From: Thermoguttaceae bacterium
GTDB lineage: Bacteria; Planctomycetota; Planctomycetia; Pirellulales; Thermoguttaceae
Length of the DNA: 64,000 nt
Assembly: GCA_025060325.1 (NCBI GenBank)
Contig: JANXBW010000011.1
Coordinates: 1 to 64,000 of the forward strand
Direction of reading: 5' to 3'
Numbering within the stretch: the first letter of the stretch is position 1; every line of letters begins with the position of its first letter. Positions 32,407 through 50,799 of the stretch are shown here, in pieces. The position numbers were made by a program, and so were the translations under genes. The notes beneath the pieces were generated by a model, which was given only the letters and a program-made list of their open reading frames with translations, ran no database searches and had not been told where the DNA came from.

Positions 32407-35400
32407 ATGCTCGAGCGTCTACGGAAAGATAATCCCGGGAAAAGAACCCATCTGGTCCCACTGATGAGGGGCCTTCGGTATGCGGCGATTATGAGCGTTT
32501 TGGTGGCTGGGGGGCTTTGGGCCGCCGCGCAACAGGCTTCAGCGCCCCCAGCTCCTGGGGGGGAAGCCAAAACCGAAGCCACCCCGGCTCCTGCCCCTCA
32601 AGGGTCCCAACCCGCTGCCGCTCCTCAGCCGGATCAGAGTCCTCCGCCGCCTGCGCAGGTGCCCAGCGAGGTAGCTCGACTAGAAGAGTTTGGCCGGCCT
32701 GAGACGGCAGACCGGCTTAAGCTAAGCGGGCGGCAGCAGGTGGAAATTCGGCGGCTTTTAGGCGAATTCCGCTCAAAAGTTGAAGGAGCTGATACTGCCG
32801 CACAGGTCCAGCTTGCGAGGGAGTTCCTGCCGCGGGTGCTTGCCGTTTTGACTCCCGAGCAGCGGCGGGCTTACGAGGAAGGTCGGCCAGTGCCGAGACT
32901 GCGCTTTCAATTTCGTTTCCAACGCTGGGAGCATGTGCTGGAATGGTTGGCTGAGCAGGCTGGTCTGTCCTTAGTGCTTGATGCCCCACCGCCGGGAACT
33001 TTCAATTACACGGACACGCGCGAATATACCCCCACTGAGGCCATCGATCTTGTCAACAGTGTCTTGTTGACGAAAGGTTATGCCCTCATTCGTCGCGACC
33101 AAATGTTGATCCTTGTTTCGCTTAAAGGGGGGATCCCCGAGGGGCTGGTTCCCTGGGTTACGGCGGAGGAAGCCCAGCGGATGGGGGCATACGACTTGGT
33201 GACGGTAAGTTTCAGCGTAGGAAGACGAGATGCCTCGCAGGTGGCCGAGGCGATTCGGCCGCTCCTTGGGCCTTATGGTCGGGTCCTTCCCATCCCGGCC
33301 ACACGGCAGGTGGTGGTAACGGATCGAGCAGGGCTGATGGCCACCGTTGATAAAGTGATCCAGGCACTTCCCGAACCAAGCCCCCCGCGACAGGAGCCAC
33401 CGCCCCGAGAGCCAGAGCGCCAGGAGCTAAGAATTTATCCTCTTGGCAAAGTGGATCCTAGTGCGCTCCTTAACATTCTGAGAGAGCTTTATCCGGCAGC
33501 GCGAATCGTCCACGACACAAAGCTTAATCAGCTCAATGTGCTCGCTACCCCAAGTCAACATAATGGTATTGAGACTGTCATTAAGAAGCTGGAGTCCCCG
33601 GAAGCCCCGGAACGGATGCCCCGACTCGAGGTCTATCCGCTTCCTCAGGGAACAAACGTGAGCGATTTGGTCAACAACTTGCAGTTTGTTGCTCCCGGGG
33701 CAAAAATCCGTGGCGATGAGGATGCCCAGCGAGTTATCGTGTGGGGAACGCCGGCCGAACAGGCGCTTATTGCCGAGGCTTTGCAGAAACTCCAAGAGCA
33801 ACCTGGCGCTCTGGGCACACCTCAGGTGGAGACCTATCGGCTCCGGCGAAGCGACGCCCGCATGGTGGCGTACATTTTGGAAAAATTGGTGCCCAAAGCG
33901 CGGGTGAGTTACGACTACTACGGGCGGAACCTCGTTGTTTACGCAACGGCGGAAGATCAGGCCGTTGTGCGAAGCATCATCGAAGAGATCGAGCCCCAGG
34001 CCGTCCAATCCGGCGACATCGAGGTCCGGGTATATACACTTCGGCGAGTAAAGCCGAGTAGCTTGGTGGAGATGTTGCAGGAGACGCTCCCGGCTGCCAA
34101 GTTTGCCGCTGACGATGCCAGCCGGCGGCTGACGGTGGTAGCTCCTGCTTCGCTGCAAGCACAGGTGGAAAAGGCGGTAAAGGAGGCAGATGCCCCGGCA
34201 GAGGGCGAAGCCGAAGCGAAACTTCGCACCTACTCCCTGCCGCAGGCTTTTGGGGATAGTGCGTCCACTCAGGTGTTGATCAATTTTCTCCAGCAGCTTT
34301 TCCCCCAGGCAAAGTTTACGCCGGATACGCGGCGGGGACAGCTTGTCGTTTACGCCACGGATGAGGAGCAAAAAAGCATCGAGGAAATCCTTGCCGAGTG
34401 GACGCAAGGCGCCCGGCCGATGGAAGGGAGCCTGGAGGTGTACTCAGTCACGCCGGAGGAAAGATCGCGCCTGCAGGCCTTGTTGACTAATCTTGCTAGC
34501 GAGTTGCCGAGCCTCCGCGTGTTGCCCGACGGAGCTCCGGGAACGATTGCCGTGTGGGCTCGGCCCCACGAACATGAGCTGGTTCGGCAGATTCTAGCGC
34601 AGCTTCGGGAGGCCGAAGGCATAATCGGTTCGCGGAGCTTGCGGGCTTATCCGCTCAGTGTGATCGAACTTTCCGCCGCGCAAGAGACCGTGCAGAAGCT
34701 TTTCCCGCAGGTGCAGGTGGTCGTCGATCAAGCTGGTCGGCGGCTGCTCGTGTGGGCTTTGCCAGAAGAGCACGAGGCAATAGCTCGGACACTCAAAGAG
34801 GTCGACGCTCCGGCGCCTCAGGAGACGCAGCCGCGTTTTGAAATTTATCCCATCCGTGGAACAAACGCGGCATCGGTGCTCAGTACTTTGCAACAACTTG
34901 TCCCGGGCGCTCGGCTGGTGGTTGACGCCAGCGGGCGGAAGATCATCGCGTGGGCCAGTCCGGCCGAGCATGCCAAAATCCAGGCCGCCCTGGCTGAGCT
35001 AAGTCAGGGGCAAACTGCCGAGACGGCTCCGTATTTGGTGGTTTATCCCCTGGGAGGCCTTAACGCAACGCAAGTGTTGACGCTTCTTCAATCTCTTGTG
35101 CCGGATGCCCAGCTTAGCGTGGACAATCAATCCGGCAGTATCCTGGCGGTTGCCGTTGCGACCGATCACGAGACTATTCGAGCCGTCTTGGATCGTCTGA
35201 CGGAAGCCCGCCGCAGTCTGGGCGGGACGGAAATTCGCTATTACCCCTATCAAGTGCCCCCCTCCAGTGGGTTGCTTGAGATACTTGCTAAACTTGCTCC
35301 CACCGCCCAGGTGACTGTGGACAAAGAAAACCGCCGACTCATTGTCGTGGCCAGCCCAGACGATCATAGACTGATCGAGCAGACGCTCCGCGATTATGAG

Positions 35401-38400
35401 CAAAAGACGCCGGCGGTCAGCGACCGCCAGCTTGTGGTTTATCAATTGTCGCCGGTGGAGCGCAAACGCTTGGAGGCGTTATTGCCGCAACTTCAAAAGC
35501 AGCTGCCGGATCTGCAGCTTTTGCCGGAGACTGTCCCCGGAGAGGTTGCCGTCTGGGCTCGACCGGAAGAACATCGCCTCCTGTCCGAGATAGTAGCGCA
35601 GCTACGTAAGCCGGCGGAACTTGATCGGCCATTTGTGCTGATCGCTCATGGCGTCCGATCGGCCGATCCTAAAAGCGTTGTGGAAATGCTCCAGAAACTT
35701 TTCCCCGACGCCCAGGTCGTGCTGGATGCGCGGGCACGCCGTGTGCTCATTTGGGCGCCCGCTTCGGCAGAACAGCAAATTCGTCAGATCCTTGAGGAGC
35801 TGGACACCGGGGCACCCGGCCAGTGGCAGGAGCAGCTGCGCGTCTATCCGGTGATTAAGAGCGATCTCCAAGTTGCCCTGCAGGTCCTTCGCGAGCGTTT
35901 ACCGGATCTTCGCATTACGCCGGATTCGCGAGCCAATACCCTGCTTGTCTGGGGCACCGAGCAAGATCATCAGGAGGTAGCCAAACTCTTGGAACAGCTC
36001 GACAGTGCTGTGGACGAGAAACATCGTCCACGGTTGGAGATCTACCCAGCCGGGGGATACGACATGACGGCACTCAGCACGCTTTTGCGCACGCTTGTGC
36101 CGGATGCCCGGTTGGCGGTCGATCCCAAGACCGGTGGACTGGCTGTGCTTGCCAGACCCGAAGATCACGAGCTTGTTCGTAAGACGCTGGAGGAACTTAG
36201 TCGCAAAGACCTGGGCGGGACACCGGAGGCCCGAACGTACACCGTAGCCGGCGGCGGAAGTGTTTGGGGTGTGATCAATATTTTGTCCACGGTTTTTCCC
36301 ACCATTCGCGTCACCATCGGCACGCAGCCTAACCAGATCCTTGTTTGGGCCCGTCCGGAAGAACACGAACAGGTGGCCAAAGTGGTCGCGGAACTTGGGA
36401 AGGAGGAGCCCCCGGAGACGGCCCCGCGGCTTGAAGTTTACACATTGGTGGGGACAAACGCCGCTGAGGCAGGGCGAATCCTCCGGTTCTTTGCCCCAGA
36501 AGCTGTTTTCACCACCGGCCCTGACCCGCAGCAGCTTCTCGTCTGGGCCAGGCCGGCCGATCACCAGAAAATTCGCGAGGCACTTGCGCAGTGGGCAGAG
36601 GCTGTCCGCAAGCCGGAAACCCTTCCCGAATTAGCTGTTTTCAATCTCAAGTACCTGTCGGCCTATTCGGCCGTTCAGGCCCTCCGCGGTGTGGTCCCGG
36701 AGGCTCAGCTCTCCGTGGGGGCAAGCGACAGGCAGCTTATTGTGCTGGCCCGCTCTGGTCAGCTGGAACGAGTCCAGGCAGCCCTGGAAAAGCTGGATGT
36801 GCCCACTCAGACCCCAGGAGAACTACGAGTCTATACCCTGGAAGGGATGAGCACCATGCGGGCGTTTTACGCTACCCGCCTTCTGCGGGAAGCAGTCCCG
36901 GAGGCGACATTCGCCCTTGGCGCTGATCCCAGTCAACTTTTGGTCTGGGCAACGCCCGAGATACACGAAAAAGTCCGAGCGCTTGTTGACACACTGTTTC
37001 AGCGACCGCCCCCCGAAAAGGCTCCCCGTGTGGAAGTTTATCGGCTAAAAGCGGTTACAGCTACTACCGCCTCGCAAGTTCTTCGAGCCGCCGTTCCCGA
37101 GGCCAATTTGACGGTGGATTCGGCAGACCCGTATAAACTTACCGTTTGGGCCGCCCCGCAGGAGCATGAGCTGATCGCCCGCATATTGGAACAAATTGAT
37201 CTTCCTGACCAGGCCGCGGAAGAGTATGTGGCTCGTTCGTACACAGTGGAGGGAGTATCCTCTTACTACGCAATCCAACTTTTGGGGCGGATGTTTCCAG
37301 CAGCTCAGTTTGTTCCCACGATGGATCCGCAACAAGTGATCGCCTGGGCCAAGCCCGAGGAGCATGAGAAGATTCGCCAAGCTCTTGCCGAGCTTGCCCC
37401 TTCCGGTGAGGAAAAGCCATCCCTCGTCACTTACGATTTGCAAACACTTGATGCTCGCACCGCTAGCAGTCTCATTCAGACGGTTGCCCCTGGGGCAAAG
37501 GTCACCGCAAGTTCCGACGGACGCAAGCTCCTCGTTTACGCCCGGCCCGGAGAACATGGACGAATCGCGGAAGTGCTCAAGGCAGCCGACGTCCCGGGCG
37601 AGGGGCCGGCTCTCCGGATGGAAGTCTATCCCGTCCGGGGGGTGGGAAATGCTTACACGGTGATGATGTTATTGCGAGAGGTGTTTCCGCAGGCAAAGTT
37701 TAGCATTGGGGCGAACTTGCAACAACTTGTTGTTTATGCCTCCCCAGCCGATCATGCCCAGATTGCCCAAGCGTTGGAGCGGTTGGCGGAACTGACTCGT
37801 GGTGAGCAACCGGAAGTTGTTGTTTACGATGTCGGGACCGCTGATGCCACCAGGCTGGCCAGCATGTTGGAGACGGCCTTTCCGGGCAGCCGATTTGTTG
37901 CCGGCAGTGAGCCTGGCAAACTCATCGCTTGGGCACCACGAAGCGATCATCAACTTATTGCCCAAGCAATTGAAAAGCTCAGGGCGGAAACCTGGGGAGC
38001 GGAAAACCGTATCCTCAGCGTCTATCCCCTCCGGCGGACCGACGCCCAAACACTTCTGCAGGTCCTAACACCCGTCCTTCAGGGCAATGCGCAGTTTGTT
38101 GTTGACAGTAGTCGTAACAGTCTCGTCGTGTGGGCCGATCGCCGCTATCATGAGGCCATCCGCCAAGCGATCGAGCAATATCTCTCGGCCACTGACAGGG
38201 TTGGAGAGCTTGAGCCCCGCGTTTACCGCTTCCGCTATGCCGATCCGAGTGCGGCCATGACCGTCGTTCGTTCGCTTGCTCCGGATGCCCAAGTGGCTTA
38301 CGACTGGGCTAACCAAGCGCTCGTAATTAGTGCCTTGCCGGAGGATCACCGCAAAATCGAGCTAGCGCTTCTGCAACTTGATCGATCCGATGTGGGCGGT

Positions 38401-40557
38401 ACGCGTCCAGTTTTGCGGGCCTATTCTGTTGAAGGAGTGGATCCTTCCCAAGCTTATAGCAACCTCCGCCAAATGTTCCGCTACGATCCGAGCGTTCAGC
38501 TGTCGCTGGATGACAGTAGCGGTTCGGTATTCGCGCTGGCTCCGGAAGGTAAACACGAACAAATTGCCCGTGTCTTGGAAGAAATGCAGCTCGTGGCCAG
38601 GCAAGGCGGCGGGGTCGTAGTGCAGACGTATTCCTTGCGGAATACCGATCCTCAGGCCGCTTTGAGCCTAGTACGGAATTTGGCCCAGCAACGCGGTTTC
38701 CGCGCTGATGCATCGCTCGATTCCCGAAGTAACTCGCTTGTTGTCATTGCTCGGGCGGAGCACCACCGGGTCATCGCCGAAGCACTTGAGCAAATCCGCG
38801 GCGAAGAAAGGCAGCTGGAAATCCTGCAGCTAGAGGAGCTTGATCCATATTCAGCCCAATCAGCGATTCGTCAACTGTTCGCTGATGAAGCTCACCCACC
38901 CCAAGTGGACATTGACTATTCGGCCCAGCAGCTGATCATTCAGGCCACGGCTGAGCAGCACCGGCGCATTCGCGAACTCTTGGGGAAGATGGGTGAAACT
39001 CGCCTGGCTGTGGTAAGTGCCTTAAGCGGCGGTAGCCCGCGTGTGATTCCCTTTGAAGGCAATCCGGCAGAGGCGCTGCGGGAAATCGAACGGGTTTGGT
39101 CCCAGCTTCGCCCCAATCCGTTGCGAATCATCGTCACCCAGCCCGGTGGTCGGTCACAGGCCCCGCAGACAGAAAGAATTGGGGCGCCTCCTGAAGATAA
39201 CCCGGCGCCTAAACCTTCAACTTCAAACCAAGCGGCACCTCCGGGAGGCAATTCATCCACTGGTGCCCCACAAAATAACTCAAGCCAAGACACCCGGGAC
39301 AAAACCGCTGCCAAAGAAGGCTGTGGTCCCCTCCGATCAAACGCCGGTAGCCGCCTAGGCAAAGACGTGGTTGTATGTACACAAGGGACAGGCGGGGGAG
39401 GCCGATTCTTCTGGCAGCTGGCCGTTATCCCGTGGGTGGGTGAAGGGACAAGCGCGGAGGCGTCGGCCCCTTCGAATGATTCCGGGGACAATTCCCCGGC
39501 AACTCCGCTCCAGACGCCAGCGCCAAAAGATGATGTCTCTGGCGGGGCCGACGATCGTTCCACCGCAGGATCGGGTCCACAGGAAGCTACTTCCGGCAGA
39601 AGCGCGGAGCAATCGCTGGGTAGGTCTTTAGAGGTTCCGGACACCGGAGGCACTCAGCAACAATCGGCCACAGCACCGACAGCCTCGCAGGCGGGAGGAC
39701 GCACCGACGCTGCAAGCATACGGGGAGAGGAGGGCAATTCCGCAAAACCGGCCGCCGCCGAGGTCCAGGAGGAAAAGCCTGTAGATCGTTCACAAGTGGC
39801 GACTGCCCCAGGAGGACAACCACCTTCTCCCCCTCCTGTTTATGTGCTCGTGCAGGATGGTGCGGTCACCGTCGTGTCCGAGGATCCTGAGGCAGCTGCC
39901 GAGCTTGAATCTCTTTTGCGTACTTTTTCCGCCCGGGCCACCCCCTCGCCGCGGACGATCACCGTCTACGAATTGCGCCATGCTAACGCGTCAACCGTGG
40001 CCGAGATAATCGAGGATTTCTTGCGGCGATCTAACTGGGGCTTCCGTCGGGCGCTGGGAGGGCTTGTCATCATCCCGGATGACCGACAAAACACGCTACT
40101 GGTCCAGGGGACCCGATCGGATCGAGCGGTAATTGAGGATCTTTTGCGTGTGTTGGACACGCCGCAACTCCCGGAGGCAGTGCGGGCTAATCAGCCGCGG
40201 ATTATTCCCCTGCGGAATATGGACGCATCGCGCGCTGAAGAAGTAGTGCGGAATGTATTTCGGGTGGTGTTTACGCCGCCGCAACCGCGATATACTCCAT
40301 GGGGGACACAGCGACAGCCGACGCCCGGTGTGCTTACACCTCAATTGGCTATCGATCAAACCACCAATAGCCTTATCATCACCGGCCCGGTGGCCGTGGT
40401 TGAGCAAATCGCCGAATTTGTGGAACGATTGGACAAGCTGGCAGCCGAGGATCCCTCCCGGCAGTTGATGATCATCCCGCTGAAAAAACTCAACGCCGCG
40501 GAAGTGGAGCGTGCTGTTCGCGAACTTGTGCCTCGCTCTTATTGGCGACGCTACTAG
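32407..40557 (+). CDS. Giant exported protein of about 31 secretin-N-like modules, no secretin barrel
   Basis: A 2716-residue protein. The frame is open from a GTG at 32278, but the ATG at 32407 is preceded by AAAGGAG and opens a clear signal peptide (residues ~22-46). After a Pro/Ala-rich part and a helical segment come an N0-like domain (~165-240, from FRFQRWEHVLEWL) and an N1-like domain (~263-325). Residues 340-2201 hold 28 tandem modules of 64-70 residues with the pattern VYPL, then LVPxAxxxVD, then LLVWAxPEEHxxI: the secretin/NolW N-domain fold. Residues 2202-2516 are a low-complexity linker, followed by two longer modules (from 2517 and 2597) and a half module (2686-2716) at which the chain ends. 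There is no secretin beta-barrel. It sits where gspD would be, 1.7 kb ahead of a type II secretion operon. I infer a periplasmic part of that machine. Confidence 0.88.
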   Translation: MLERLRKDNPGKRTHLVPLMRGLRYAAIMSVLVAGGLWAAAQQASAPPAPGGEAKTEATPAPAPQGSQPAAAPQPDQSPPPPAQVPSEVARLEEFGRPETADRLKLSGRQQVEIRRLLGEFRSKVEGADTAAQVQLAREFLPRVLAVLTPEQRRAYEEGRPVPRLRFQFRFQRWEHVLEWLAEQAGLSLVLDAPPPGTFNYTDTREYTPTEAIDLVNSVLLTKGYALIRRDQMLILVSLKGGIPEGLVPWVTAEEAQRMGAYDLVTVSFSVGRRDASQVAEAIRPLLGPYGRVLPIPATRQVVVTDRAGLMATVDKVIQALPEPSPPRQEPPPREPERQELRIYPLGKVDPSALLNILRELYPAARIVHDTKLNQLNVLATPSQHNGIETVIKKLESPEAPERMPRLEVYPLPQGTNVSDLVNNLQFVAPGAKIRGDEDAQRVIVWGTPAEQALIAEALQKLQEQPGALGTPQVETYRLRRSDARMVAYILEKLVPKARVSYDYYGRNLVVYATAEDQAVVRSIIEEIEPQAVQSGDIEVRVYTLRRVKPSSLVEMLQETLPAAKFAADDASRRLTVVAPASLQAQVEKAVKEADAPAEGEAEAKLRTYSLPQAFGDSASTQVLINFLQQLFPQAKFTPDTRRGQLVVYATDEEQKSIEEILAEWTQGARPMEGSLEVYSVTPEERSRLQALLTNLASELPSLRVLPDGAPGTIAVWARPHEHELVRQILAQLREAEGIIGSRSLRAYPLSVIELSAAQETVQKLFPQVQVVVDQAGRRLLVWALPEEHEAIARTLKEVDAPAPQETQPRFEIYPIRGTNAASVLSTLQQLVPGARLVVDASGRKIIAWASPAEHAKIQAALAELSQGQTAETAPYLVVYPLGGLNATQVLTLLQSLVPDAQLSVDNQSGSILAVAVATDHETIRAVLDRLTEARRSLGGTEIRYYPYQVPPSSGLLEILAKLAPTAQVTVDKENRRLIVVASPDDHRLIEQTLRDYEQKTPAVSDRQLVVYQLSPVERKRLEALLPQLQKQLPDLQLLPETVPGEVAVWARPEEHRLLSEIVAQLRKPAELDRPFVLIAHGVRSADPKSVVEMLQKLFPDAQVVLDARARRVLIWAPASAEQQIRQILEELDTGAPGQWQEQLRVYPVIKSDLQVALQVLRERLPDLRITPDSRANTLLVWGTEQDHQEVAKLLEQLDSAVDEKHRPRLEIYPAGGYDMTALSTLLRTLVPDARLAVDPKTGGLAVLARPEDHELVRKTLEELSRKDLGGTPEARTYTVAGGGSVWGVINILSTVFPTIRVTIGTQPNQILVWARPEEHEQVAKVVAELGKEEPPETAPRLEVYTLVGTNAAEAGRILRFFAPEAVFTTGPDPQQLLVWARPADHQKIREALAQWAEAVRKPETLPELAVFNLKYLSAYSAVQALRGVVPEAQLSVGASDRQLIVLARSGQLERVQAALEKLDVPTQTPGELRVYTLEGMSTMRAFYATRLLREAVPEATFALGADPSQLLVWATPEIHEKVRALVDTLFQRPPPEKAPRVEVYRLKAVTATTASQVLRAAVPEANLTVDSADPYKLTVWAAPQEHELIARILEQIDLPDQAAEEYVARSYTVEGVSSYYAIQLLGRMFPAAQFVPTMDPQQVIAWAKPEEHEKIRQALAELAPSGEEKPSLVTYDLQTLDARTASSLIQTVAPGAKVTASSDGRKLLVYARPGEHGRIAEVLKAADVPGEGPALRMEVYPVRGVGNAYTVMMLLREVFPQAKFSIGANLQQLVVYASPADHAQIAQALERLAELTRGEQPEVVVYDVGTADATRLASMLETAFPGSRFVAGSEPGKLIAWAPRSDHQLIAQAIEKLRAETWGAENRILSVYPLRRTDAQTLLQVLTPVLQGNAQFVVDSSRNSLVVWADRRYHEAIRQAIEQYLSATDRVGELEPRVYRFRYADPSAAMTVVRSLAPDAQVAYDWANQALVISALPEDHRKIELALLQLDRSDVGGTRPVLRAYSVEGVDPSQAYSNLRQMFRYDPSVQLSLDDSSGSVFALAPEGKHEQIARVLEEMQLVARQGGGVVVQTYSLRNTDPQAALSLVRNLAQQRGFRADASLDSRSNSLVVIARAEHHRVIAEALEQIRGEERQLEILQLEELDPYSAQSAIRQLFADEAHPPQVDIDYSAQQLIIQATAEQHRRIRELLGKMGETRLAVVSALSGGSPRVIPFEGNPAEALREIERVWSQLRPNPLRIIVTQPGGRSQAPQTERIGAPPEDNPAPKPSTSNQAAPPGGNSSTGAPQNNSSQDTRDKTAAKEGCGPLRSNAGSRLGKDVVVCTQGTGGGGRFFWQLAVIPWVGEGTSAEASAPSNDSGDNSPATPLQTPAPKDDVSGGADDRSTAGSGPQEATSGRSAEQSLGRSLEVPDTGGTQQQSATAPTASQAGGRTDAASIRGEEGNSAKPAAAEVQEEKPVDRSQVATAPGGQPPSPPPVYVLVQDGAVTVVSEDPEAAAELESLLRTFSARATPSPRTITVYELRHANASTVAEIIEDFLRRSNWGFRRALGGLVIIPDDRQNTLLVQGTRSDRAVIEDLLRVLDTPQLPEAVRANQPRIIPLRNMDASRAEEVVRNVFRVVFTPPQPRYTPWGTQRQPTPGVLTPQLAIDQTTNSLIITGPVAVVEQIAEFVERLDKLAAEDPSRQLMIIPLKKLNAAEVERAVRELVPRSYWRRY
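33424..39009 (+). repeat. 28 tandem secretin-N-type coding repeats of about 200 bp
   Basis: Diverged tandem repeats within the giant gene, average 199.5 bp (66.5 codons). At protein level the modules fall into higher-order sets: modules 6-10 resemble modules 11-15 one for one, and from module 15 to 23 two types alternate. DNA identity between repeats is low, so the array is old rather than freshly expanded. Confidence 0.85.
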
Positions 40558-40618: not shown

Positions 40619-41626
40619 CTAACGAGTTTGCCGCTCTGAAGGAGCGGCGGTTTCGGAGGCTCTTTCGCCAGGGGCAGAAGCCGATCCTTGTGCGCTTTTT
40701 GGACCGGCGAGCACTTCCTGGGGTGTCAGCACTCCGTCCCCGTCGAGATCGTAGCGGCTGAATTCCTCGATTCGTTGCGGACCACCTTCGGCCAGGAATT
40801 CTGCCGTCGTCAGTTGGCCATCGCCATCGCTATCAAGCGAGGCGAACCAACGCGGCAAGGCCGAGGGAAGACTCTCGGGCGGGACATAAAACTTAGGCGT
40901 TTTCACTCGCTGACTTCCGACGGCACTTGGCGCCGGTTTTCCGGCTTGGGTAAGGGGCGGTACCAGGACCGGCGATCCCTCCGGGCTTTGCGTCGGCAAG
41001 GGACTGGAGGGTCCGGGGGGAGTTTGCTTCGCCTCCGGAGGCGCGATGAGGCTACTGAGAGATCCGGTAGGAAGCTTGAGCCGAATTCGCCGACCGGCGG
41101 CGTACCGAGCAAGCCAGTCAAGATACTCCTCCCGGTCTACCGTCCCATCCTGGTTTCGGTCAATCTCAGACCACACCTCCTTTGCCTCAGGCCACTCCGA
41201 CTGAGACAACTTGCCATCCCGGTTGGTATCCCGCTGGGAGAACCGCAAACTCGCCAGGCGAACCAGTTTGAACGGAATTGCCTTTACGACGAGGGGTGAT
41301 TCGTTACCCACCTCATCGGTGGAATCGCCCCCTCCCGATTGATGGAATTCTGGGTCAGAGGCACTTGCCGATGCCCCACGGTCCAGAAAAGCCAAAAGAT
41401 CAGTAAGTCGACAAATAAAATGATTTTGGTCTTGGGGACAGGTTAAGCCTGGAGTCCGGGTAAGGGAGGCGGGGCTCGGTGGTTGTCCCAGAATCACTGC
41501 ACACCCAAAAGAGGCCGGAATGGCGGCAACGGCGGCCAGGGTAATGCGGCCCAAAGCGATTCCTAATTTCGGGGCGAAAAGTCGTTCAAAAAGGTCAGAT
41601 GTTTCGTGGCGGGAAGTCCGAGGCAT
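40619..41626 (-). CDS. Secreted or membrane-anchored EF-hand protein
   Basis: Protein of 335 residues with an N-terminal hydrophobic stretch (ALGRITLAAVAAIPASFGCAV). Four EF-hand calcium loops are visible: DTNRDGKLSQSE and DRNQDGTVDREE as a first pair, DSDGDGQLTTAE and DLDGDGVLTPQE as a second, separated by a ~90-residue Pro/Ser-rich linker. It is convergent with the giant secretin-N gene (61-bp gap) and divergent from the secretion operon. EF-hand proteins are common in planctomycete envelopes. A role in calcium-dependent assembly of the neighbouring machine is only a possibility. Confidence 0.82.
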   Translation of the reverse strand: MPRTSRHETSDLFERLFAPKLGIALGRITLAAVAAIPASFGCAVILGQPPSPASLTRTPGLTCPQDQNHFICRLTDLLAFLDRGASASASDPEFHQSGGGDSTDEVGNESPLVVKAIPFKLVRLASLRFSQRDTNRDGKLSQSEWPEAKEVWSEIDRNQDGTVDREEYLDWLARYAAGRRIRLKLPTGSLSSLIAPPEAKQTPPGPSSPLPTQSPEGSPVLVPPLTQAGKPAPSAVGSQRVKTPKFYVPPESLPSALPRWFASLDSDGDGQLTTAEFLAEGGPQRIEEFSRYDLDGDGVLTPQEVLAGPKSAQGSASAPGERASETAAPSERQTR

Positions 41627-42214: not shown

Positions 42215-43963
42215 ATGTCCGTCTCAGGACGCTTGGGGGACGAACTTCCTCACGACATCGCGCAGGGACCTCCTATGATCACCACCAAGACGTTGCAGCG
42301 CAGTTGGACACTTTCCGCCGAACAGCTGGCTCGCGCGCGGGAGTGCCTTGAGCGGGAAGGGAATTTGGAATCGTTTGCCATCGAGTGCGGAATGGCAAGC
42401 GAAGAGGAAGCGTGGCGGGTAGTCGGCGATGCGCTCGGCATGGATTTTGTCGATTTAAGTTCCGCCAGAATTGACCTTTCGCTCCTTCAGGATTTCCCGG
42501 TTCGTCTTATCCACCGGTACAACGTTTTTCCCATCGCTTTGTCCGGTGGCGCGCTGGTGGTGGCTACCTCCAACCCATTTGATCTCCACGGCATCGACGC
42601 GGTAGGTGCTGCCGTTGGGCGCAGCGTCCTTCCGGTCCTGGTGACGACAAAGGAACTGCAAAAGCTTATTAAAAGCCGGCTGGGCGTAGGCGCAGAGACA
42701 ATCAACAATCTGCTTGCTCAGGAAGAGGAGGCTTCCAGCGTTGAGTTATTAGATGAGCCGGAGTGGGACGCGGCGGAGGCGGCTGAGGCTCAAGAGGCGT
42801 CGGTCGTTCGGCTTGTTAACGAAATCCTGGTGGAAGCGATCGAGGCTCGGGCAAGCGACATCCACTTGGAGTGCCAAGCCTCGGGAATAAAGATTCGCTA
42901 CCGCATTGATGGTGTTTTGCAAACACAGCCGACGCCGCCTCAGATTAATCGCTTCAAGAATGCGATTATCAGCCGGCTGAAGATTATGGCCCGGCTGAAT
43001 ATTGCCGAAAAGCGCTTGCCCCAAGACGGGCGCATCAAACTGAAAGTCAACGGTCGGGAGGTCGACATCCGTGTCTCCGTTATCCCCATGCTCCATGGCG
43101 AAGGTATTGTGATGCGAATCCTCGATAAGGATCGCATGGAGTTTAACCTTCGCGGCCTGGGGATGGAAGAAGATGTTTACGAGCAATTCCAACAGCTTAT
43201 TCGGCTGCCGCACGGCATTATTCTTGTCACCGGGCCGACCGGCTCCGGCAAGACCACAACACTTTATAGTGCGCTCAACGAGATTAAGAGCGAAGCCACC
43301 AAGATCATTACCACGGAAGATCCTATCGAGTATCATTTGGAAGGGATCAACCAAATCCAAGTGCATCCCAAGGTAGGGCTAACATTTGCCGCCAGTTTAC
43401 GAAGTATCCTCCGCCATGACCCGGATGTTATCTTGGTCGGGGAAATTCGCGATCTGGAAACGGCAGAAAATGCTGTACAGGCATCGCTGACTGGGCACCT
43501 GGTCTTCAGTACACTGCACACAAATGACGCGGCCAGTGCGTTTATGCGGCTAACGGACATGGGTGTGGAGCCATTCTTGGTCTCCAGCACCGTGGAAGGC
43601 GTAATGGCGCAGCGACTTGTGCGGACGTTGTGCAAGGAGTGTCGCGAGCCCTATTATCCCTCCGAGGACGAGTTGCCGGATGATTTCCCCCGGCCAACGG
43701 GCCGGCGCCTGCCGGTGCTTTATCGGGCGGTTGGATGTCGGCACTGCCGCAACACAGGCTACCGGGGCCGAATTGGTATCTTTGAACTCTTGGTCACCAC
43801 CGACGAGATTCGCCGATTGGTCGGTGAGCGAACACCCACCCACGTCATCAAAAAAGTGGCCATGGAGGCCGGCATGCGGACCCTGCGTCAGGACGGTTGG
43901 CTCAAAGTCCTCCGTGGTCAGACAACGATCGAGGAAGTTCTTCGGGTCACCAAGTGCGACTAA
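42215..43963 (+). CDS. gspE: Type II secretion / type IV pilus assembly ATPase GspE
   Basis: Cytoplasmic hexameric ATPase (582 residues) that powers pseudopilus assembly. The N-terminal ~150 residues form the GspE/PilB N-domain. The core has Walker A GPTGSGKTTTLYSALNEI, the aspartate box RIDGVLQT, and Walker B ILVGEIRDLETAENA with the histidine box TGHLVFSTLHTNDA. A zinc-type tetracysteine lies near residues 472-515 (CKEC...CRHC). GGAGGA sits 11 nt before the ATG; an ATG 60 bp downstream is a second candidate. First gene of the operon. Confidence 0.95.
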   Translation: MSVSGRLGDELPHDIAQGPPMITTKTLQRSWTLSAEQLARARECLEREGNLESFAIECGMASEEEAWRVVGDALGMDFVDLSSARIDLSLLQDFPVRLIHRYNVFPIALSGGALVVATSNPFDLHGIDAVGAAVGRSVLPVLVTTKELQKLIKSRLGVGAETINNLLAQEEEASSVELLDEPEWDAAEAAEAQEASVVRLVNEILVEAIEARASDIHLECQASGIKIRYRIDGVLQTQPTPPQINRFKNAIISRLKIMARLNIAEKRLPQDGRIKLKVNGREVDIRVSVIPMLHGEGIVMRILDKDRMEFNLRGLGMEEDVYEQFQQLIRLPHGIILVTGPTGSGKTTTLYSALNEIKSEATKIITTEDPIEYHLEGINQIQVHPKVGLTFAASLRSILRHDPDVILVGEIRDLETAENAVQASLTGHLVFSTLHTNDAASAFMRLTDMGVEPFLVSSTVEGVMAQRLVRTLCKECREPYYPSEDELPDDFPRPTGRRLPVLYRAVGCRHCRNTGYRGRIGIFELLVTTDEIRRLVGERTPTHVIKKVAMEAGMRTLRQDGWLKVLRGQTTIEEVLRVTKCD

Positions 43964-44090: not shown

Positions 44091-45296
44091 ATGCCTGAAT
44101 TTGCGTACATTGCTCGCTCCGCTGACGGTCGGGATGTCTCTGGGACATTGGTGGCAAATAGTTTGCGCGAAGCACTCGCCGCTTTAGCCGACCGGTCCCT
44201 CTATCCGCTAAAGGTGGAACCTCTTCGGGAGCGACTAGGCTTTTGGGTTCCGCGGCGTGTGACCTCTGCCCAGTTGGCCACCACGCTAGCTCAGCTTGCC
44301 GACCTGCTTCAAAACGGCGTTCCCCTGCTTGGTTCGCTTTCGGTCCTAGCCGAGCAGGCTATCCATCCAGAGCTAAGACGTGTTCTGGCCGACGTTCGCG
44401 ACAAGGTGGCTCAAGGTACGGCAATTGATCAGGCTTTGGCCGCCCATCCACATGTTTTTGGCGAGCTTGTGGTGAGCATGGTGCGAGCCGGCAGCGAAGG
44501 CGCCTTTCTGGAGGATGCTCTCAAGCGGACGGCCAACTTCCTGGAACTGCAGGAAGAGATTCGCTCCCGCGTCAAAGGCGCGATGTTTTATCCGGCTTTC
44601 CTTGCTTTTGTGGGCACCGTGATCACCACGGCGCTTATAGTATTTTTCGTGCCGCGGTTTGCAGAGCTGTTTGAGAAGCTTGAGCGCGAGGGAGGCGGAC
44701 TTCCCTTTGCGACCGTGATGCTTTTGGGTTTGAGCGATTTCCTGGCACAGTACGGCGTTTTAGTTGCGATCGCTTTAACGGCGGTTGTTTTGATAATTCG
44801 GCAGTTGACGAAGTCACCACGCGGTCGCGAGTGGGTGGATCGGGTCAAGCTAAGGATGCCCGTTCTTGGACCGATTTTCCTTCACTATGCGGTGTCGCGC
44901 TTCTGCCGGGTGCTGGGCACACTCCTTCGTAACGGTGTGCCGTTGTTAAAAGCGCTTGAAATTAGCAGTCAATCGGCTGGTAACCGTGTCCTAGAGAAGG
45001 CCATCCGCCAGTCGGCAGAGAATGTGTCGTCCGGCGAAACACTTTCCCGACCACTTGCGCAGTGCGGTGTCATTCCTAAGCCCATTATGGCAATGATTAC
45101 GGTGGCTGAGCAAGCTAACAACTTGGATGATGTCCTTGTGCAGATTGCCGAGACAGTCGAGCGGCGGATGGCCCGGCAGATCGACCTAATGGTCCGCATG
45201 GTCGAGCCGGTGATGCTTTTAGTTATGGGCACATTGATCATGTTCGTGCTCGTGGCGTTGCTCCTGCCAATAATCGAAATGAGCACGTCTCTATAA
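44091..45296 (+). CDS. gspF: Type II secretion inner-membrane platform protein GspF
   Basis: Polytopic platform protein of 401 residues linking the ATPase to the growing pseudopilus. It has the duplicated helical domain (LADLLQNGVPLLGSLSVLAEQ and LGTLLRNGVPLLKALEISSQ), three membrane helices (near 167-189, 218-240, 375-399) and the typical MVRAGSEGAFLEDAL and MITVAEQANNLDDVL. Follows gspE by 127 bp. Confidence 0.95.
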   Translation: MPEFAYIARSADGRDVSGTLVANSLREALAALADRSLYPLKVEPLRERLGFWVPRRVTSAQLATTLAQLADLLQNGVPLLGSLSVLAEQAIHPELRRVLADVRDKVAQGTAIDQALAAHPHVFGELVVSMVRAGSEGAFLEDALKRTANFLELQEEIRSRVKGAMFYPAFLAFVGTVITTALIVFFVPRFAELFEKLEREGGGLPFATVMLLGLSDFLAQYGVLVAIALTAVVLIIRQLTKSPRGREWVDRVKLRMPVLGPIFLHYAVSRFCRVLGTLLRNGVPLLKALEISSQSAGNRVLEKAIRQSAENVSSGETLSRPLAQCGVIPKPIMAMITVAEQANNLDDVLVQIAETVERRMARQIDLMVRMVEPVMLLVMGTLIMFVLVALLLPIIEMSTSL

Positions 45297-45626: not shown

Positions 45627-46274
45627 ATGACAAATCAACGCAAAGCGCACAACTTTATCCGCCGGCCAAGGTGGCGCGGCTTTACCCTGATGGAAATGCT
45701 CATTGTTCTAGGGATCTTGGTGATGCTGATTGCGCTGGCGGCACCGAGGTTCTTGGGCGCGCAAAAGAAAGCGGACATCCAAACCGCCAAGACCCAAATT
45801 GGGCTTTTCCGGGGGGCCTTGGAACGGTATGCGCTTGACATGAAGACTTTCCCCACGACCGAGCAGGGGCTGGAGGCGCTCATCACCCCACCGGCCACCG
45901 CGGAGGCAAGTGTCCCGGAAGGGACGGGGGCTACGCCGGCTGCTCCTGCTAGCAAGTGGGATGGGCCGTATCTCAATGTCAGCCAAATTCCGCTTGATCC
46001 TTGGGGAAATCCTTACCAGTACCGCTATCCCCCCGAGCGAGGGACCACCGACTTCCCGGACATTTGGTCATACGGACCGGATGGCCAGGACAACACGGAA
46101 GATGACATCTGTAGCTGGGGGGCACCGGGGCAAGGCCAAGCAAGTCGCGAACCGGGCGCTGGGACGTTCGACCGGCCGACTGCACCCACCTCGCCTGCTG
46201 GCCCACCGGGTGGTCCGGTAACCCCACCCCCTGGTCCGCCACCCATGCCGCCCTCCCGACCGGCCAATATTTAA
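45627..46274 (+). CDS. gspG: Major pseudopilin GspG with Pro/Gly-rich tail
   Basis: Major pseudopilin (215 residues). The prepilin cleavage site is RWRG|FTLMEMLIVLGILVMLIALAAP, and the GspG core follows: FRGALERYALDMKTFPTTEQGLEAL, DPWGNPYQYRYP and the calcium-loop region WSYGPDGQDNTEDDI. Typical GspG is ~140 residues and ends shortly after this loop. Here a further ~45 residues are Pro/Gly-rich and probably disordered. AAAGGAGG lies 10 nt before the ATG. Confidence 0.93.
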   Translation: MTNQRKAHNFIRRPRWRGFTLMEMLIVLGILVMLIALAAPRFLGAQKKADIQTAKTQIGLFRGALERYALDMKTFPTTEQGLEALITPPATAEASVPEGTGATPAAPASKWDGPYLNVSQIPLDPWGNPYQYRYPPERGTTDFPDIWSYGPDGQDNTEDDICSWGAPGQGQASREPGAGTFDRPTAPTSPAGPPGGPVTPPPGPPPMPPSRPANI

Positions 46275-46495
46275 GGGTTAGCAAGCTTTCCCGATCGGGT
46301 GAATTCTCGCTACCCCAAGGTGCGGCAGAAGCCGGCTTTCGATGGCGGCTCTCCGGCGGGATTGTTCCGCATGGGCCGTTACGTTTTATCAGGAAGGGGC
46401 CTTCCGCCGATTTACTCCCCCGCTAGAGTGCTTTTTGCCAACGTCGCGTTAAAGAAGTACCTGGACACCGACCGGTATTGTCTACCAAGTTCCAC

Positions 46496-47266
46496 ATGTC
46501 CGAGCGGCCTTGTGGCAACCGCCGAGCTTACACGCTGACCGAGATGGTCATCGTGCTGGCCGTGGTTGCCGCTCTCATGGCGCTTGCCTGGCCCTCCCTC
46601 AGCCGGCCGTCTTCGAGATCTCAGCTTCGCTACGCTGCCAAGTACCTACGTGCGGAGCTTGCTCAAGCTCGGCTCGAGGCTATTCGGACCAACAAGCCCT
46701 GGCAGTTCTGCTACGCTCCGGGCACCGGGCAGTACATGATCGGCCCGGTGGAGAAAGCAAATTCCGGCGATTCTTTTTCCGAACTTGGGAACAATTTGGG
46801 CAGTTTGGAAAACGCCGCATCGGCACAGTCTTTGGGACAACCTCGGGCTCCGGGGAAAAGAGAACTTCCCGGCGATGTGATATTCGAGTTCCCGGAGCCG
46901 ATCGTATCGGCTTCGCGGACGGGCCGTCAGGCTGAAGTCACATCCGGGACATTCGACGCACCCGCAGGCGATTTTTCGGCCGAGACTGTTTCGCCTCCTG
47001 AAGATGGGGTGGCAAATTCGCCGGAATCACCAGCGGTTGATGCTGGTGCTCAGAGTTGGGAGCGAATTGTTTTTTTGCCCTCTGGGAGGTGTATGCGGAA
47101 CTATCTTCTGATGCTTCGTGGCCCGCACGGGTTTCAGTTACCGATCGTGGTTCGCGCCGTGACAGGGACCGCTTTGGTAGGCGAGGTGATGGCACCTTCC
47201 CGACCTCCGGCTGATGGCTCCTCGATGGGTCAGACACGGCAACTTGCGACGGTGGCGGGTCCGTAA
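46496..47266 (+). CDS. Minor pseudopilin, GspH-like
   Basis: Protein of 256 residues with a type IV prepilin N-terminus: a short leader, then A|YTLTEMVIVLAVVAALMALAWP with Ala instead of the usual Gly before the cleavage point. The following helix LRYAAKYLRAELAQARLEAIRTNK and the position after gspG indicate GspH. The middle (residues ~95-185) is a low-complexity insert. The frame is open from a TTG at 46478; I prefer the ATG at 46496. The stop is 2 bp before the next start. Confidence 0.8.
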   Translation: MSERPCGNRRAYTLTEMVIVLAVVAALMALAWPSLSRPSSRSQLRYAAKYLRAELAQARLEAIRTNKPWQFCYAPGTGQYMIGPVEKANSGDSFSELGNNLGSLENAASAQSLGQPRAPGKRELPGDVIFEFPEPIVSASRTGRQAEVTSGTFDAPAGDFSAETVSPPEDGVANSPESPAVDAGAQSWERIVFLPSGRCMRNYLLMLRGPHGFQLPIVVRAVTGTALVGEVMAPSRPPADGSSMGQTRQLATVAGP

Positions 47267-47268
47267 AG

Positions 47269-47847
47269 ATGCCTCCGGCAAATACCCGCGGCTTTTCGCT
47301 GTTTGAGGTTTTAGTGGCCGTAGCAGTTCTGGCCGGCTGCGCTGTCATTCTTGCCCAAATCGCAAGCTTTTCGAGGCAGGGGATTGAGAAACTGCAGTAC
47401 CGCACGCAAGCGCAAATTTTTTGCCAAAGCAAGCTGGCGGAAATTCTCTCTGGGGCCGAGCCATTGGAAGCAGTAAGTAAGCGGGAGCTGCCCGACCAGC
47501 CAGGATGGTTCTATTCCGTACAGGTGGAGCGGCGCGAGTCTGACGGCTTGGTGGCTGTAAGCGTCCGGACCTGGTTGGAACGCGGCGATACCACAACGGG
47601 GACAGAAGGCTCCGGGACCGTTTTGGCTGAATCGACCCTTGTAAGGTGGGTGCGAGACCCCCAACGACCGGCTGTCACTCGGCAAGATAGGCAAGTGCTT
47701 GATGAGGGCGGCGGAATGGTTCGGTCCAGCGCTCCATCCCAGGGCCGGATATCCGGAGGGCGGTCCCGGCAGGGAGGCTTTTCCAGGAGATTTGGCACCG
47801 GCCTTTATGGCGAGCGCCGCTTTCGCGGGTCGCCGTCGGAGGAATAA
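47269..47847 (+). CDS. Minor pseudopilin, GspI-like
   Basis: Protein of 192 residues with the prepilin signature TRG|FSLFEVLVAVAVLAGCAVI directly at the N-terminus and a GspI-like core (QIFCQSKLAEILSGAEPLEAV, PGWFYSVQVERRES). The tail is Ser/Arg/Gly-rich. It is tightly linked to the preceding gene, so translational coupling is likely. In type II systems GspI nucleates the tip complex with GspJ and GspK. Confidence 0.8.
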   Translation: MPPANTRGFSLFEVLVAVAVLAGCAVILAQIASFSRQGIEKLQYRTQAQIFCQSKLAEILSGAEPLEAVSKRELPDQPGWFYSVQVERRESDGLVAVSVRTWLERGDTTTGTEGSGTVLAESTLVRWVRDPQRPAVTRQDRQVLDEGGGMVRSSAPSQGRISGGRSRQGGFSRRFGTGLYGERRFRGSPSEE

Positions 47848-48031
47848 AGGCTCGAGTATCCTCCCGCTGCCTCTTTGGGTCGCAGCGGAAGATTCGGCCG
47901 GCCTGCTCAACCAGGTAGTCATCCTTCGTGTAAACGAAACTGTCTAGGCAGCGTTGGTGTATGCGATTTTGCTTGTGTTTGTACGAGCGTTGAGAATCTC
48001 TAAGGTCCTTCCCCCCAGGATACCGCGGTAT

Positions 48032-49222
48032 GTGATTGGCGGGCTTTTCGCCCGAGCCAACCGGTCCGCCCCTAAAGTGTACAAGCCCTTTTTCGGATTT
48101 ACCCTCCTTGAGCTCCTGATTGCCTCCTTCCTGATCTCCGTTGTGGTTCTTGCCCTTTGGGGGTTGTTTTCTGTTTACGCTGGGCTAATGGATGCGGGTT
48201 TTCGACGCGTGGAGCAAACCCAAGTGGTCCGCGCGCTGGCTGAACAGCTCCGCTCGGACCTCCGCCACGCCATCCAGGATCCCGTCGGTGGACTGCGAAC
48301 GCCGCGAACGGGTGCGGCACCTGTTCGGCGATTTGGCTTATGGGGAACGTCAACGGAATTACGCTTCGATGTCCTGCAACCGCCACCGAGTTTTGACCTA
48401 GCCGGAACCTCGGGCCAGAAGGAGGCCGGCTTTGAGGGAGACACGGCGGAGCGCCTTCCCGAATTAAGGACCGTATACTATCGATTCTCCCCTCCCCAAG
48501 CCCCGCAGCTTGAACCGAGATCAGCCCAGTTCAGCCAGGAGACTGACCTGGGAACCGACCAAGACCGCGCGATAAATCTTGATCGGGTGAATCTTCCGGG
48601 ACTCCTTCGCTGGGAAAAGGACTTCGAGACACCGGAGGGCAAAGCAAGTTTGGAAGAGAGCATTACAGGTGGGAGCGCTACCGGCGAAACGTCCCTCGTC
48701 GGCGTTTCTAGATCGCTCACCCAGTCAGGGGAGCAGGCCACACTGCCTGCACTTCATGCACAGCTTCAATCTCTTTATGGCCCGCAGGTTTTGTATATTC
48801 CGGAGGTTGTAGAGCTAGAATTCCGATATTTCGACGGACGGAGCTGGTCCTCTAGCTGGGATAGTCTTTCCCGGCAAGCGCTGCCCGTGGCAGTCGAGGT
48901 GCGATTCCGCATCGACCCGGATTTTCGCGCAGAAGGAGCTGCGGGTCCGCAAGATGGGGCAACTCAGTTGCTGCAAGCCGGGGAGAATGAGATGCCGGCA
49001 GAACGGCCGCCAACTGCCGGCGAGAGCTTCCGGGTAGTGATTGACATTCCTGGATCACCCCGATTCGAAGGACCGCGATCCCCTGCACCCGCGGAAAGTC
49101 CACAAAGCCCACCCCTTGTCACTCGCCCAGTTATTCCACCGCGGCCCTTGCCGCTTGCCCGACCGGTGGAACCACGGCCACAACTTTTGCCTTCTGATCA
49201 GTGGATGAGGGTTTCTCCGTGA
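48032..49222 (+). CDS. Minor pseudopilin, GspJ-like
   Basis: Prepilin of about 396 residues, longer than usual GspJ (~200). The cleavage motif is FFG|FTLLELLIASFLISVVVLALWGLF, followed by a helix and LRSDLRHAIQDP. The later YIPEVVELEFRYFDGRSWSSSWDS segment is the typical GspJ region. The C-terminal ~90 residues are Pro-rich. No ATG precedes the cleavage site: the frame is open from a TTG at 47954, and I chose the GTG at 48032, which gives a 22-residue leader. Its stop overlaps the start of the next gene. Confidence 0.78.
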   Translation: MIGGLFARANRSAPKVYKPFFGFTLLELLIASFLISVVVLALWGLFSVYAGLMDAGFRRVEQTQVVRALAEQLRSDLRHAIQDPVGGLRTPRTGAAPVRRFGLWGTSTELRFDVLQPPPSFDLAGTSGQKEAGFEGDTAERLPELRTVYYRFSPPQAPQLEPRSAQFSQETDLGTDQDRAINLDRVNLPGLLRWEKDFETPEGKASLEESITGGSATGETSLVGVSRSLTQSGEQATLPALHAQLQSLYGPQVLYIPEVVELEFRYFDGRSWSSSWDSLSRQALPVAVEVRFRIDPDFRAEGAAGPQDGATQLLQAGENEMPAERPPTAGESFRVVIDIPGSPRFEGPRSPAPAESPQSPPLVTRPVIPPRPLPLARPVEPRPQLLPSDQWMRVSP

Positions 49223-50799
49223 ACCGTGTCGCCCGGCGGAAAAAAAGGTTGCCTGCGGTAACGAGCCATGACGGAAGGCTCCCTGAAGCCATGGTCCCGG
49301 GGCCTGTCAGCCAAGGGCGCCGGGGGGAGGCATCGTCGGGGATGATCCTGCTTGTCGTGCTTGTTGTTCTGAGCATGCTCACCTTCGCCGGCCTGGCGAT
49401 TGTCATCAATATTTCAACAGAGACACGGGCCTTTGTTTACGAAAGTAATCGGCTGCAACTGGAGCAGGTTCTTCTATCCGGCGTGGAGTATCTCAAGGCT
49501 TTTTGTGAAAAGACCCCGGCAGAGCAGTTTGCCGCGGGCGGTCCGGACGATAACCCGGCTCGCTTTTCCCGAGTGCCCGTGGCCGCTCCGGGTGGGAGTG
49601 CTCCCCTGGGCTATTTCAGCGTGCTTGCGCCGCGGCAGGAAGCCGATCCGAGCACTCCCGGCGGACGTTTCGGTCTGCAAAGCGAAAACGCCAAACTCAA
49701 CTTGCGGACGCTTCTTTTGTGGGAGGAAACAGGTATTGCGCGGGCCCGGGATGCGCTTATGCTCCTTCCGGGCATGACCGAGTCGGTAGCCGATAGCATC
49801 CTGGACTGGGTCGATGCGGACGAAAGCCGTCGCCCTTACGGTGCCGAGGCCGATTACTATGCCACTCAGCGACTGCCCTATCGGCCCCGAAACGATGTCC
49901 CCGTGGCCATCGAAGAGCTTCTCCTAGTTCGGGGGGTCGAGCGGTATCTGCTGATTGGTGCGACATTCGGCCAACCGAGTTCGGCGGGGCTATCCTTAGT
50001 TACTGGTGGGGGAGGCCAATCTGAGGCCACGGCTTGGGTCAACTATATCACGCCCTATAGCGGCGAGCGGAACGTCAGTAGCGACGGTCTGCCCCGAATC
50101 AACCTTAACGATCCAGAGCTTGCTCGGCTCCATCAACGGATTGCCCAAGCGTTTACAGAAGAAATCGCGGACTTTGTGGTCTTTTATCGGCAGTTTGGTC
50201 CGGCTACTGAGGAGGTGGACAGTCTTTCCGATGCTCAGGCAGCCCCGGGGGATCTTGCCCCCGACTTTAGCCGATCGGCCGCACATGCTTTTCGAAGTGT
50301 TTTTGACATTTTGGACGCCTCTGTCGAGGTGGAAGTAGCCGGGCGGGACCGGGTGGTAGTTCGCTCACCACTGTCGGCGGATCCTGAGCTTGTCCGTCAA
50401 CATTTGTCCAACTGGATCGACCGCACAACTACCACTGCCGACCGAGTCCTTTATGGCCGGATCGATATTACCCGGGCCCCGCGGGAAGTTCTGTTGGCAA
50501 TACCGGGAATGGATAGCACAGTTGCCGAACGCATACTTGCCCTTCGTCAGCAGGGGACATCAGGCGGGGAGGAATCGCCGCTTGCCCGGCTGTATTTTGA
50601 GGGGGCAATCTCGGCGGAACAACTTCGGCAACTTGGTCCCTTTGTCACCACTCGCACTGACGTGTGGACAGCGGAGATCGTGGCCGAGGATGCGGGCAAT
50701 CCGAATCTTCGCCTTCGGGCGGTGGTGACCGTGGATGCTACCGCGGTACCAGCTCGGCAAGTATACTGGAAGCATATGGGCAGTGGCCCCAGTACCTAA
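49219..50799 (+). CDS. gspK: Tip pseudopilin, GspK-like
   Basis: Large minor pseudopilin (526 residues). The hydrophobic segment is SSGMILLVVLVVLSMLTFAGLAI. The GspK-specific parts are LPGMTESVADSILDWVDADESRRPYGAEADYY and a later helix-hairpin-helix, INLNDPELARL and ITRAPREVLLAIPGMDSTVAERILALR. The GTG at 49219 overlaps the gspJ stop as GTGA, with GAGGG 7 nt upstream, a classic coupled start. A GTG at 49201 is also in frame. About 45 residues precede the hydrophobic segment, long for a prepilin leader. Confidence 0.87.
   Translation: MNRVARRKKRLPAVTSHDGRLPEAMVPGPVSQGRRGEASSGMILLVVLVVLSMLTFAGLAIVINISTETRAFVYESNRLQLEQVLLSGVEYLKAFCEKTPAEQFAAGGPDDNPARFSRVPVAAPGGSAPLGYFSVLAPRQEADPSTPGGRFGLQSENAKLNLRTLLLWEETGIARARDALMLLPGMTESVADSILDWVDADESRRPYGAEADYYATQRLPYRPRNDVPVAIEELLLVRGVERYLLIGATFGQPSSAGLSLVTGGGGQSEATAWVNYITPYSGERNVSSDGLPRINLNDPELARLHQRIAQAFTEEIADFVVFYRQFGPATEEVDSLSDAQAAPGDLAPDFSRSAAHAFRSVFDILDASVEVEVAGRDRVVVRSPLSADPELVRQHLSNWIDRTTTTADRVLYGRIDITRAPREVLLAIPGMDSTVAERILALRQQGTSGGEESPLARLYFEGAISAEQLRQLGPFVTTRTDVWTAEIVAEDAGNPNLRLRAVVTVDATAVPARQVYWKHMGSGPST

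Follow-up and report, generated by a model that had tools for sequence, protein, structure and literature searches.

A giant barrel-less array of Secretin_N modules at the gspD position of a planctomycete type II secretion locus, probably part of a split secretin

We analysed a window of 64,000 nucleotides from a Thermoguttaceae bacterium and found that it encodes, at the gspD position of a type II secretion system (T2SS) locus, a giant protein with an N0 domain and about 31 Secretin_N-type modules that ends without a secretin barrel (Table 1). In an ordinary GspD, one chain comprises the N0 domain, a small number of N domains and, in the outer membrane, the secretin barrel, and the subunits build 12-15-fold stacked rings in the envelope. 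The domain make-up of the protein, the absence of the barrel, the synteny with T2SS genes, a matching clade of separate secretins and the existence of versions in which array and barrel share one chain were observed directly. The giant is probably one part of a split and hugely elongated GspD, which would pair with a separate secretin and whose modules would stack on each other.

Table 1. Features of the giant array protein and of the genes downstream of it (positions in the window)
Feature	Position	Strand	Basis
Giant secretin-less GspD-like array protein, 2716 aa	32407..40557	+	ORF; Secretin_N 544.9 bits; TIGR02517 336.1 bits
Apparent signal peptide, hydrophobic stretch at about residues 25-41	32407..32541	+	Translation judged by eye
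Charged helical-looking region preceding N0	32677..32877	+	Translation; alignable in 8/9 A1 orthologues (the ninth starts later)
N0 domain	32893..33123	+	Model residues 8-84 match ETEC GspD N0 4jtm
N1-type module, residues 267-321	33205..33369	+	Module HMM 36.6 bits; Pfam Secretin_N 44 bits
28 tandem Secretin_N modules, residues 341-2195	33427..38991	+	Module HMM; beta-alpha-beta-beta-alpha in four-module model
Linker, 322 residues, Pro/Ala/Ser/Gly-rich	38992..39957	+	Gap between module HMM matches
C-terminal two modules and half module	39958..40539	+	Module HMM; Secretin_N 87.8 bits
EF-hand protein, antisense, between giant and gspE	40619..41626	-	Pfam EF-hand; also in several relatives
gspE ATPase	42215..43963	+	TIGR02533 631.9 bits, above cut-off 630.25
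gspF	44091..45296	+	T2SSF
gspG major pseudopilin	45627..46274	+	T2SSG
gspH-like minor pseudopilin	46478..47266	+	GspH 23.4 bits, N_methyl
gspI-position minor pseudopilin	47269..47847	+	N_methyl only, slightly below cut-off; position
gspJ-like minor pseudopilin	47954..49222	+	N_methyl; T2SSJ below cut-off
gspK	49201..50799	+	NF037980 60.7 bits, below cut-off 130
gspL / PilM-like	50843..52453	+	Amuc_1101 family 36.8 bits, PilM 21.9 bits, both below cut-off
gspM	52458..53381	+	NF040576 21.7 bits, below cut-off; position

A count of about 31 modules had been proposed in an earlier note written from the DNA letters and their translations, and the module HMM, iterated from one module, arrived at the same number: an N1-type module, 28 tandem copies and two and a half more after the linker (residues 2518-2583, 2598-2675 and, for the half copy, 2687-2711). 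Within the 28-copy array this HMM places exactly 11 residues in 17 of the 27 gaps. The Pfam Secretin_N model (PF03958) matches the protein far beyond chance (E 1.1e-167 at the score in Table 1), with 16 stretches significant singly. The N0-like and N1-like domains claimed in the same note were both recovered, N1 by the module HMM and N0 by its predicted fold, its Pfam match being weak (PF21305, 15 bits, below the cut-off of 27). The NCBI GspD model (type_II_gspD, TIGR02517) falls slightly below its cut-off of 351.35, and the Pfam search did not find the secretin barrel (PF00263) in the 2716-residue chain. The region that precedes N0 may resemble repeats of the LTXXQ/Spy type.

The modules of the window protein have diverged from each other, with a mean pairwise identity of 27%, a maximum of 51% and no pair at or above 60%. 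A co-linear orthologue in a genome of the same genus shares 70% identity across residues 40-2716. A chance repeat or an artefact is ruled out by the Pfam score, the orthologues and the divergence of the modules. To the eye, the linker looks like an insertion within one further module, and its downstream part weakly matches residues 497-630 of a secretin encoded elsewhere in the genome (locus L016).

In general, structure prediction of module blocks, which the earlier note had proposed as a check, agreed with its claim of a secretin N fold: the modules match N1-N3 of GspD and N0 matches the N0 of GspD. We folded four-module blocks with AlphaFold, with an input alignment of 100 blocks drawn from the window and from related loci, because five- and six-module alignments slipped out of register. 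In the resulting model (mean pLDDT 92.8, pTM 0.47) each module is a beta-alpha-beta-beta-alpha unit. For this model Foldseek gave 37 matches at E <= 0.001, every one of them a T2SS or T3SS secretin or needle-complex entry, and three successive modules superimpose on GspD N1-N3 at 5.3-6.2 A over 179-185 residues (6i1x, 6hcg, 5wq7, 5wq8, 5wq9). In a model of the N-terminal part (pLDDT 86.7, pTM 0.48), N0 aligns with the N0 of ETEC GspD (4jtm) with a Z score of 11.9 and an rmsd of 2.1 A over 80 residues, and three modules align with GspD N1-N3 only at 13-15 A. Because of these pTM values the placement of modules relative to each other is not confidently predicted, and the two single-chain models disagree on it. 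Thus, the predicted folds of single modules are firm and the geometry between them is not.

Downstream of the giant lies a gspE-F-G-H-I-J-K-L-M series, and the order of giant and then gspE recurs in relatives, which is in line with the gspD position claimed earlier. The identities of gspE, gspF and gspG are clear; those of the H, I, J, K, L and M genes rest on weak or sub-cut-off model matches and on gene order. One detail of the earlier picture had to be amended, as the antisense EF-hand gene separates the giant from gspE. This gene is equally placed in several related loci (L028/L048, L029/L049, L032, L033, L037, L050, L062 and L069) and also occurs beside short arrays in L095 and L097. Calcium is relevant to T2SS cargo. 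A GspC partner for N0 (PF11356, T2SSC) had no match at E <= 1 in the bacterium's own genome, and 3 of 14 control genomes matched; it is possible that the genome encodes a diverged one. Additionally, the same genome holds a second complete gspE-M operon (L163, G000:C77, 3044-14751) without an adjacent N-module protein. The likely partners of that T2SS are a short array on contig C11 and the secretin on contig C10.

A survey of orthologues and their module counts, also proposed in the earlier note, recovered relatives with widely varying numbers of modules. Scanning named genomes yielded 69 loci, which belong to Planctomycetes wherever a taxon was named, with the nearest relatives in uncultured Thermoguttaceae and Thermogutta MAGs. 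We called an ORF giant when it had 12 or more modules (n=43), and none of the 43 carries a Secretin domain. Complete giants have 15-36 modules and contig-cut ones up to at least 49 (L055); L070, with 12 modules, is a fragment interrupted by masked bases and was set apart from the complete ones. Fourteen giants have an intact 3' end and at least 4 kb of visible sequence, and in 10 of these a co-directional gspE follows within 4 kb (the exceptions are L059, L064, L066 and L099); the same holds for 7 of 13 short relatives. At E <= 1e-10 the N0-N1 unit was found in 56 of 294 sampled genomes of the phylum.

In a tree of 94 N0-N1 sequences, 43 giants fall inside one set of 48 rows (support 90/94), the other rows being four contig-cut ones and L067, which is interrupted by masked bases. 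The giant label needs three changes in this tree because three one-chain giants lie apart. Secretin-less N0 arrays, which range from 15 to at least 49 modules, make up a single group within Planctomycetia. Where an ORF has 12 modules or more, the intervals between modules were measured, and 808 of 1246 are 9-11 residues long (a few contigs are counted twice); such short and uniform linkers would fit a regular stack and are no proof of one.

Several of the relatives have features of their own. In the module-identity comparison, which covered 16 proteins other than L122 and L123, arrays L051, L055, L056 and L075 contain near-identical modules (up to 96% identity). In L055 and L075 the similarity is stronger at distances of two and four modules, as if these arrays had recently grown by the doubling of blocks. 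Short tandem peptide repeats (TPAETTPAE..., QPSQG...) precede N0 at the 5' end of L030 and L031, and the contigs break there. A deep third N0 type, with proteins of about 900-1100 aa and 4-5 modules, forms its own branch (98/100; L046, L047, L128 and L130) and was found in genomes with a single T2SS.

The pore appears to be supplied by a separate protein elsewhere in the genome, and this split is common to many relatives; both points lay beyond the view of the earlier note. A PF00263 search of the whole genome found five secretins, on contigs C33, C10, C13, C19 and C6 only, and a barrel hidden beyond the stop codon of the giant was rejected on these grounds. Two of the five combine several Secretin_N modules with a barrel, namely those on C33 (1319 aa, locus L016) and C10 (1277 aa). 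We also considered that the secretin might begin with the missing half of the giant's terminal half module, and set this aside because, judged by eye, the C33 protein opens with a whole module.

For related loci, the conclusions of the barrel searches rest on the C33 and C10 secretins as queries. In one genome (G013) the giant, gspE-F-G-H-I-J-K-L-M and a 1290-aa secretin, 22 bp past gspM, follow each other on one strand. In L059, L060 and L064 a secretin gene precedes the giant by about 2 kb, in the same orientation, and in family f10 (G067, G310) the cluster opens with a short N0 array and closes with a secretin after gspM. Seventeen split-type genomes were searched for both gspK loci and multi-N secretins. 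The two counts agree in 15 of them, among these the genome studied here with two of each, and differ in G007 and G010, whose completeness is 78% and 87%. In G186 and G140, N0 proteins outnumber gspK loci.

In a 33-row secretin tree one branch (support 99/96, present in each of 200 bootstrap trees) separates six giant-tied secretins, which either adjoin a giant or are alone in a giant-only genome, from ten that are tied to short arrays. Each of the eight two-copy genomes (G000, G001, G002, G007, G009, G010, G011 and G012) has one copy inside the giant clade and one outside, and the giant-clade copy of the genome studied here is the C33 secretin. A tree built from the barrel only leaves the split unresolved, as the labels need two changes and 4% of the bootstraps give one; in it, C33 groups with the giant-adjacent L060 secretin (98/96). 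N0 was detected in none of 14 giant-clade secretins. It is present in 3 of 30 distinct secretins with the N-terminus in view, all three short-linked members of family f10, so array proteins are not the only carriers of N0.

Homologous proteins adjoin multi-N secretins in four loci: L059 (7639-8763), L064 (7397-8617), L016 (5000-6796, minus strand) and L014 (6293-7426, minus strand). The L059 and L064 proteins match the C33 and C10 neighbours at 117-140 bits, and the one in L059 has, by eye, a lipobox-like start. They are candidates for a pilotin or an accessory lipoprotein.

Three loci (L121, L122 and L123, families f12, f72 and f94) encode N0, 43-52 modules and a barrel in single frames of 4213-5073 aa; the true start of L121 is uncertain, and its protein is nearer 4550 aa. 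Pfam, applied to the other two, gives Secretin_N scores of 1367.5 and 1396.7 bits and Secretin scores of 159.5 and 170 bits. T2SS genes lie upstream in all three, clearly in L123 and L122 and weakly in L121 (a 28-bit GspK match). One-chain frames occur in 6 of 294 sampled genomes and have the barrel in frame in all six (five among the PF00263 matches listed, L122 by Pfam); the PF00263 search covered 118 genomes, and its giant frames are a lower bound. In these proteins the modules run into the barrel without a long break. It is worth stressing that, of our arguments for a joint function of array and barrel, the existence of such natural fusions is the strongest.

We propose that the giant would be that portion of a split type II secretin which lies closest to the inner membrane, contributing N0 and about 31 N modules, and that the 1319-aa C33 protein would add several N modules and the barrel as the second chain. 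N0 would face the GspE-M platform, subunits side by side would turn each module into one ring of a stack, and the last modules of the giant may attach to the N modules that the barrel protein carries. The resulting conduit, very roughly 100 nm long if each ring adds an estimated 2.5-4 nm, could house a long GspG pseudopilus together with cargo. The partnership of the giant with a separate secretin seems very likely; for the stacking of modules into a tube the chances look about even. More tentatively, and with the balance slightly against it, type II secretion in planctomycetes may proceed through a periplasmic tube of about 100 nm with roughly 35-50 N rings, made in some lineages by one chain and in others by an array docked on a separate secretin; module duplication would adjust the ring number to how wide the enlarged periplasm is.

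A split elongated GspD, and with it the role alongside the neighbouring T2SS that the earlier note had suggested, draws support from the folds of N0 and the N modules, the gspE synteny, the matching clade in the secretin tree and the one-chain versions. The equal numbers of gspK loci and secretins, the giant-clade secretins without N0 and the N part of XcpQ, which self-assembles into rings without the C domain (PMC5646246), argue for it too. The reading is weakened by the low pTM, the 13-15 A alignment, the linker that interrupts the array and the variable module number, as well as by the giants without gspE, the barrel-only tree, the N0 of f10 secretins and the excess N0 proteins of G186 and G140. 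The conduit of the earlier note is the best reading here too, but its stacked rings are something we infer, given the low pTM of both models and their disagreement.

The same features that speak against regular rings, namely the low pTM, the conflicting module-to-module geometry and the widely varying module number, together with the long Pro/Ala/Ser-rich linker, would suit a flexible tether or ruler, in which singly folded modules are strung as beads between an N0-bound platform and the secretin or cell wall and provide spacing without rings. We consider such a tether unlikely, as the linkers between modules are short and uniform and the modules of one-chain versions continue into a barrel at which the flanking N domains are known as rings. 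That the array is a decayed or misassembled gspD, which lost its barrel and merely accumulates repeats, can hardly be true. The chain does stop in a half module without a barrel, but this ending, read by eye, is common to relatives, the frame is kept open and N0 is conserved in many species, the co-linear orthologue is 70% identical, and the diverged modules include no near-identical copies.

It is also quite improbable that the protein belongs to another envelope structure, such as a crateriform complex, a fibre base or a general scaffold, that merely lies beside the T2SS operon. Craters, fibres and an enlarged periplasm are described as real planctomycete features (PMC5394234), but the gspE-M neighbourhood is recurrent, the secretin clade is matched, and the one-chain versions stand next to T2SS genes. 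Moreover, the same source reports the craters of Planctopirus limnophila where two membranes come close, a position that does not favour a very long tube at craters. With these alternatives weighed, a split, elongated GspD made of two proteins, one of them with about 31 modules, would, together with one-chain forms of 43-52, extend the known range several-fold. It would make the crossing of a greatly enlarged periplasm by secretion machines directly testable, and module number is a readable trait that can be compared with periplasm width in cultured planctomycetes. If the tube is real, it would be an exceptionally long export channel across a wide planctomycete cell envelope.

A literature search, in which subscription journals and preprints were thinly covered, found no title or abstract describing a giant array or a split bacterial secretin, and the bacterial T2SS pore is stated in PMC10128026 to be an oligomer of a single polypeptide. 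Like GspD, PulD and XcpQ, the giant has N0 and Secretin_N modules whose predicted fold is the same, and its gene stands at the gspD position of a T2SS operon, together with gspE-F-G and the genes of minor pseudopilins. It differs from them in its barrel-less chain (no PF00263, and TIGR02517 short of its cut-off) and in its roughly 31 modules, whereas the bacterial GspD described in PMC8134430 has N0-N3. The earlier statement that ordinary secretins have two to four N units is nearly right, but PilQ of Thermus thermophilus is reported to have six N rings, a number termed unusual, in a 350 A complex that spans a wide periplasm (PMC5745081). PilQ thus resembles the giant in that extra N rings let a secretin cross a wide periplasm, and differs in being a single chain with a barrel and six rings that serves a type IV pilus system. 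In the mitochondrial T2SS the GspD barrel protein is described as separate from the Secretin_N proteins GspDN1-3, with a GspD-GspDN1 contact reported by yeast two-hybrid (PMC8134430). The likeness lies in a secretin split between a barrel and separate Secretin_N proteins, here on co-occurring chains (15/17 genomes, matched clade); GspDN1-3, in contrast, are single or half domains rather than arrays and lack N0. The one-chain proteins of L121, L122 and L123 share N0, the long Secretin_N array and the adjoining T2SS genes with the giant and differ from it in the C-terminally fused barrel and the larger number of modules in each chain.
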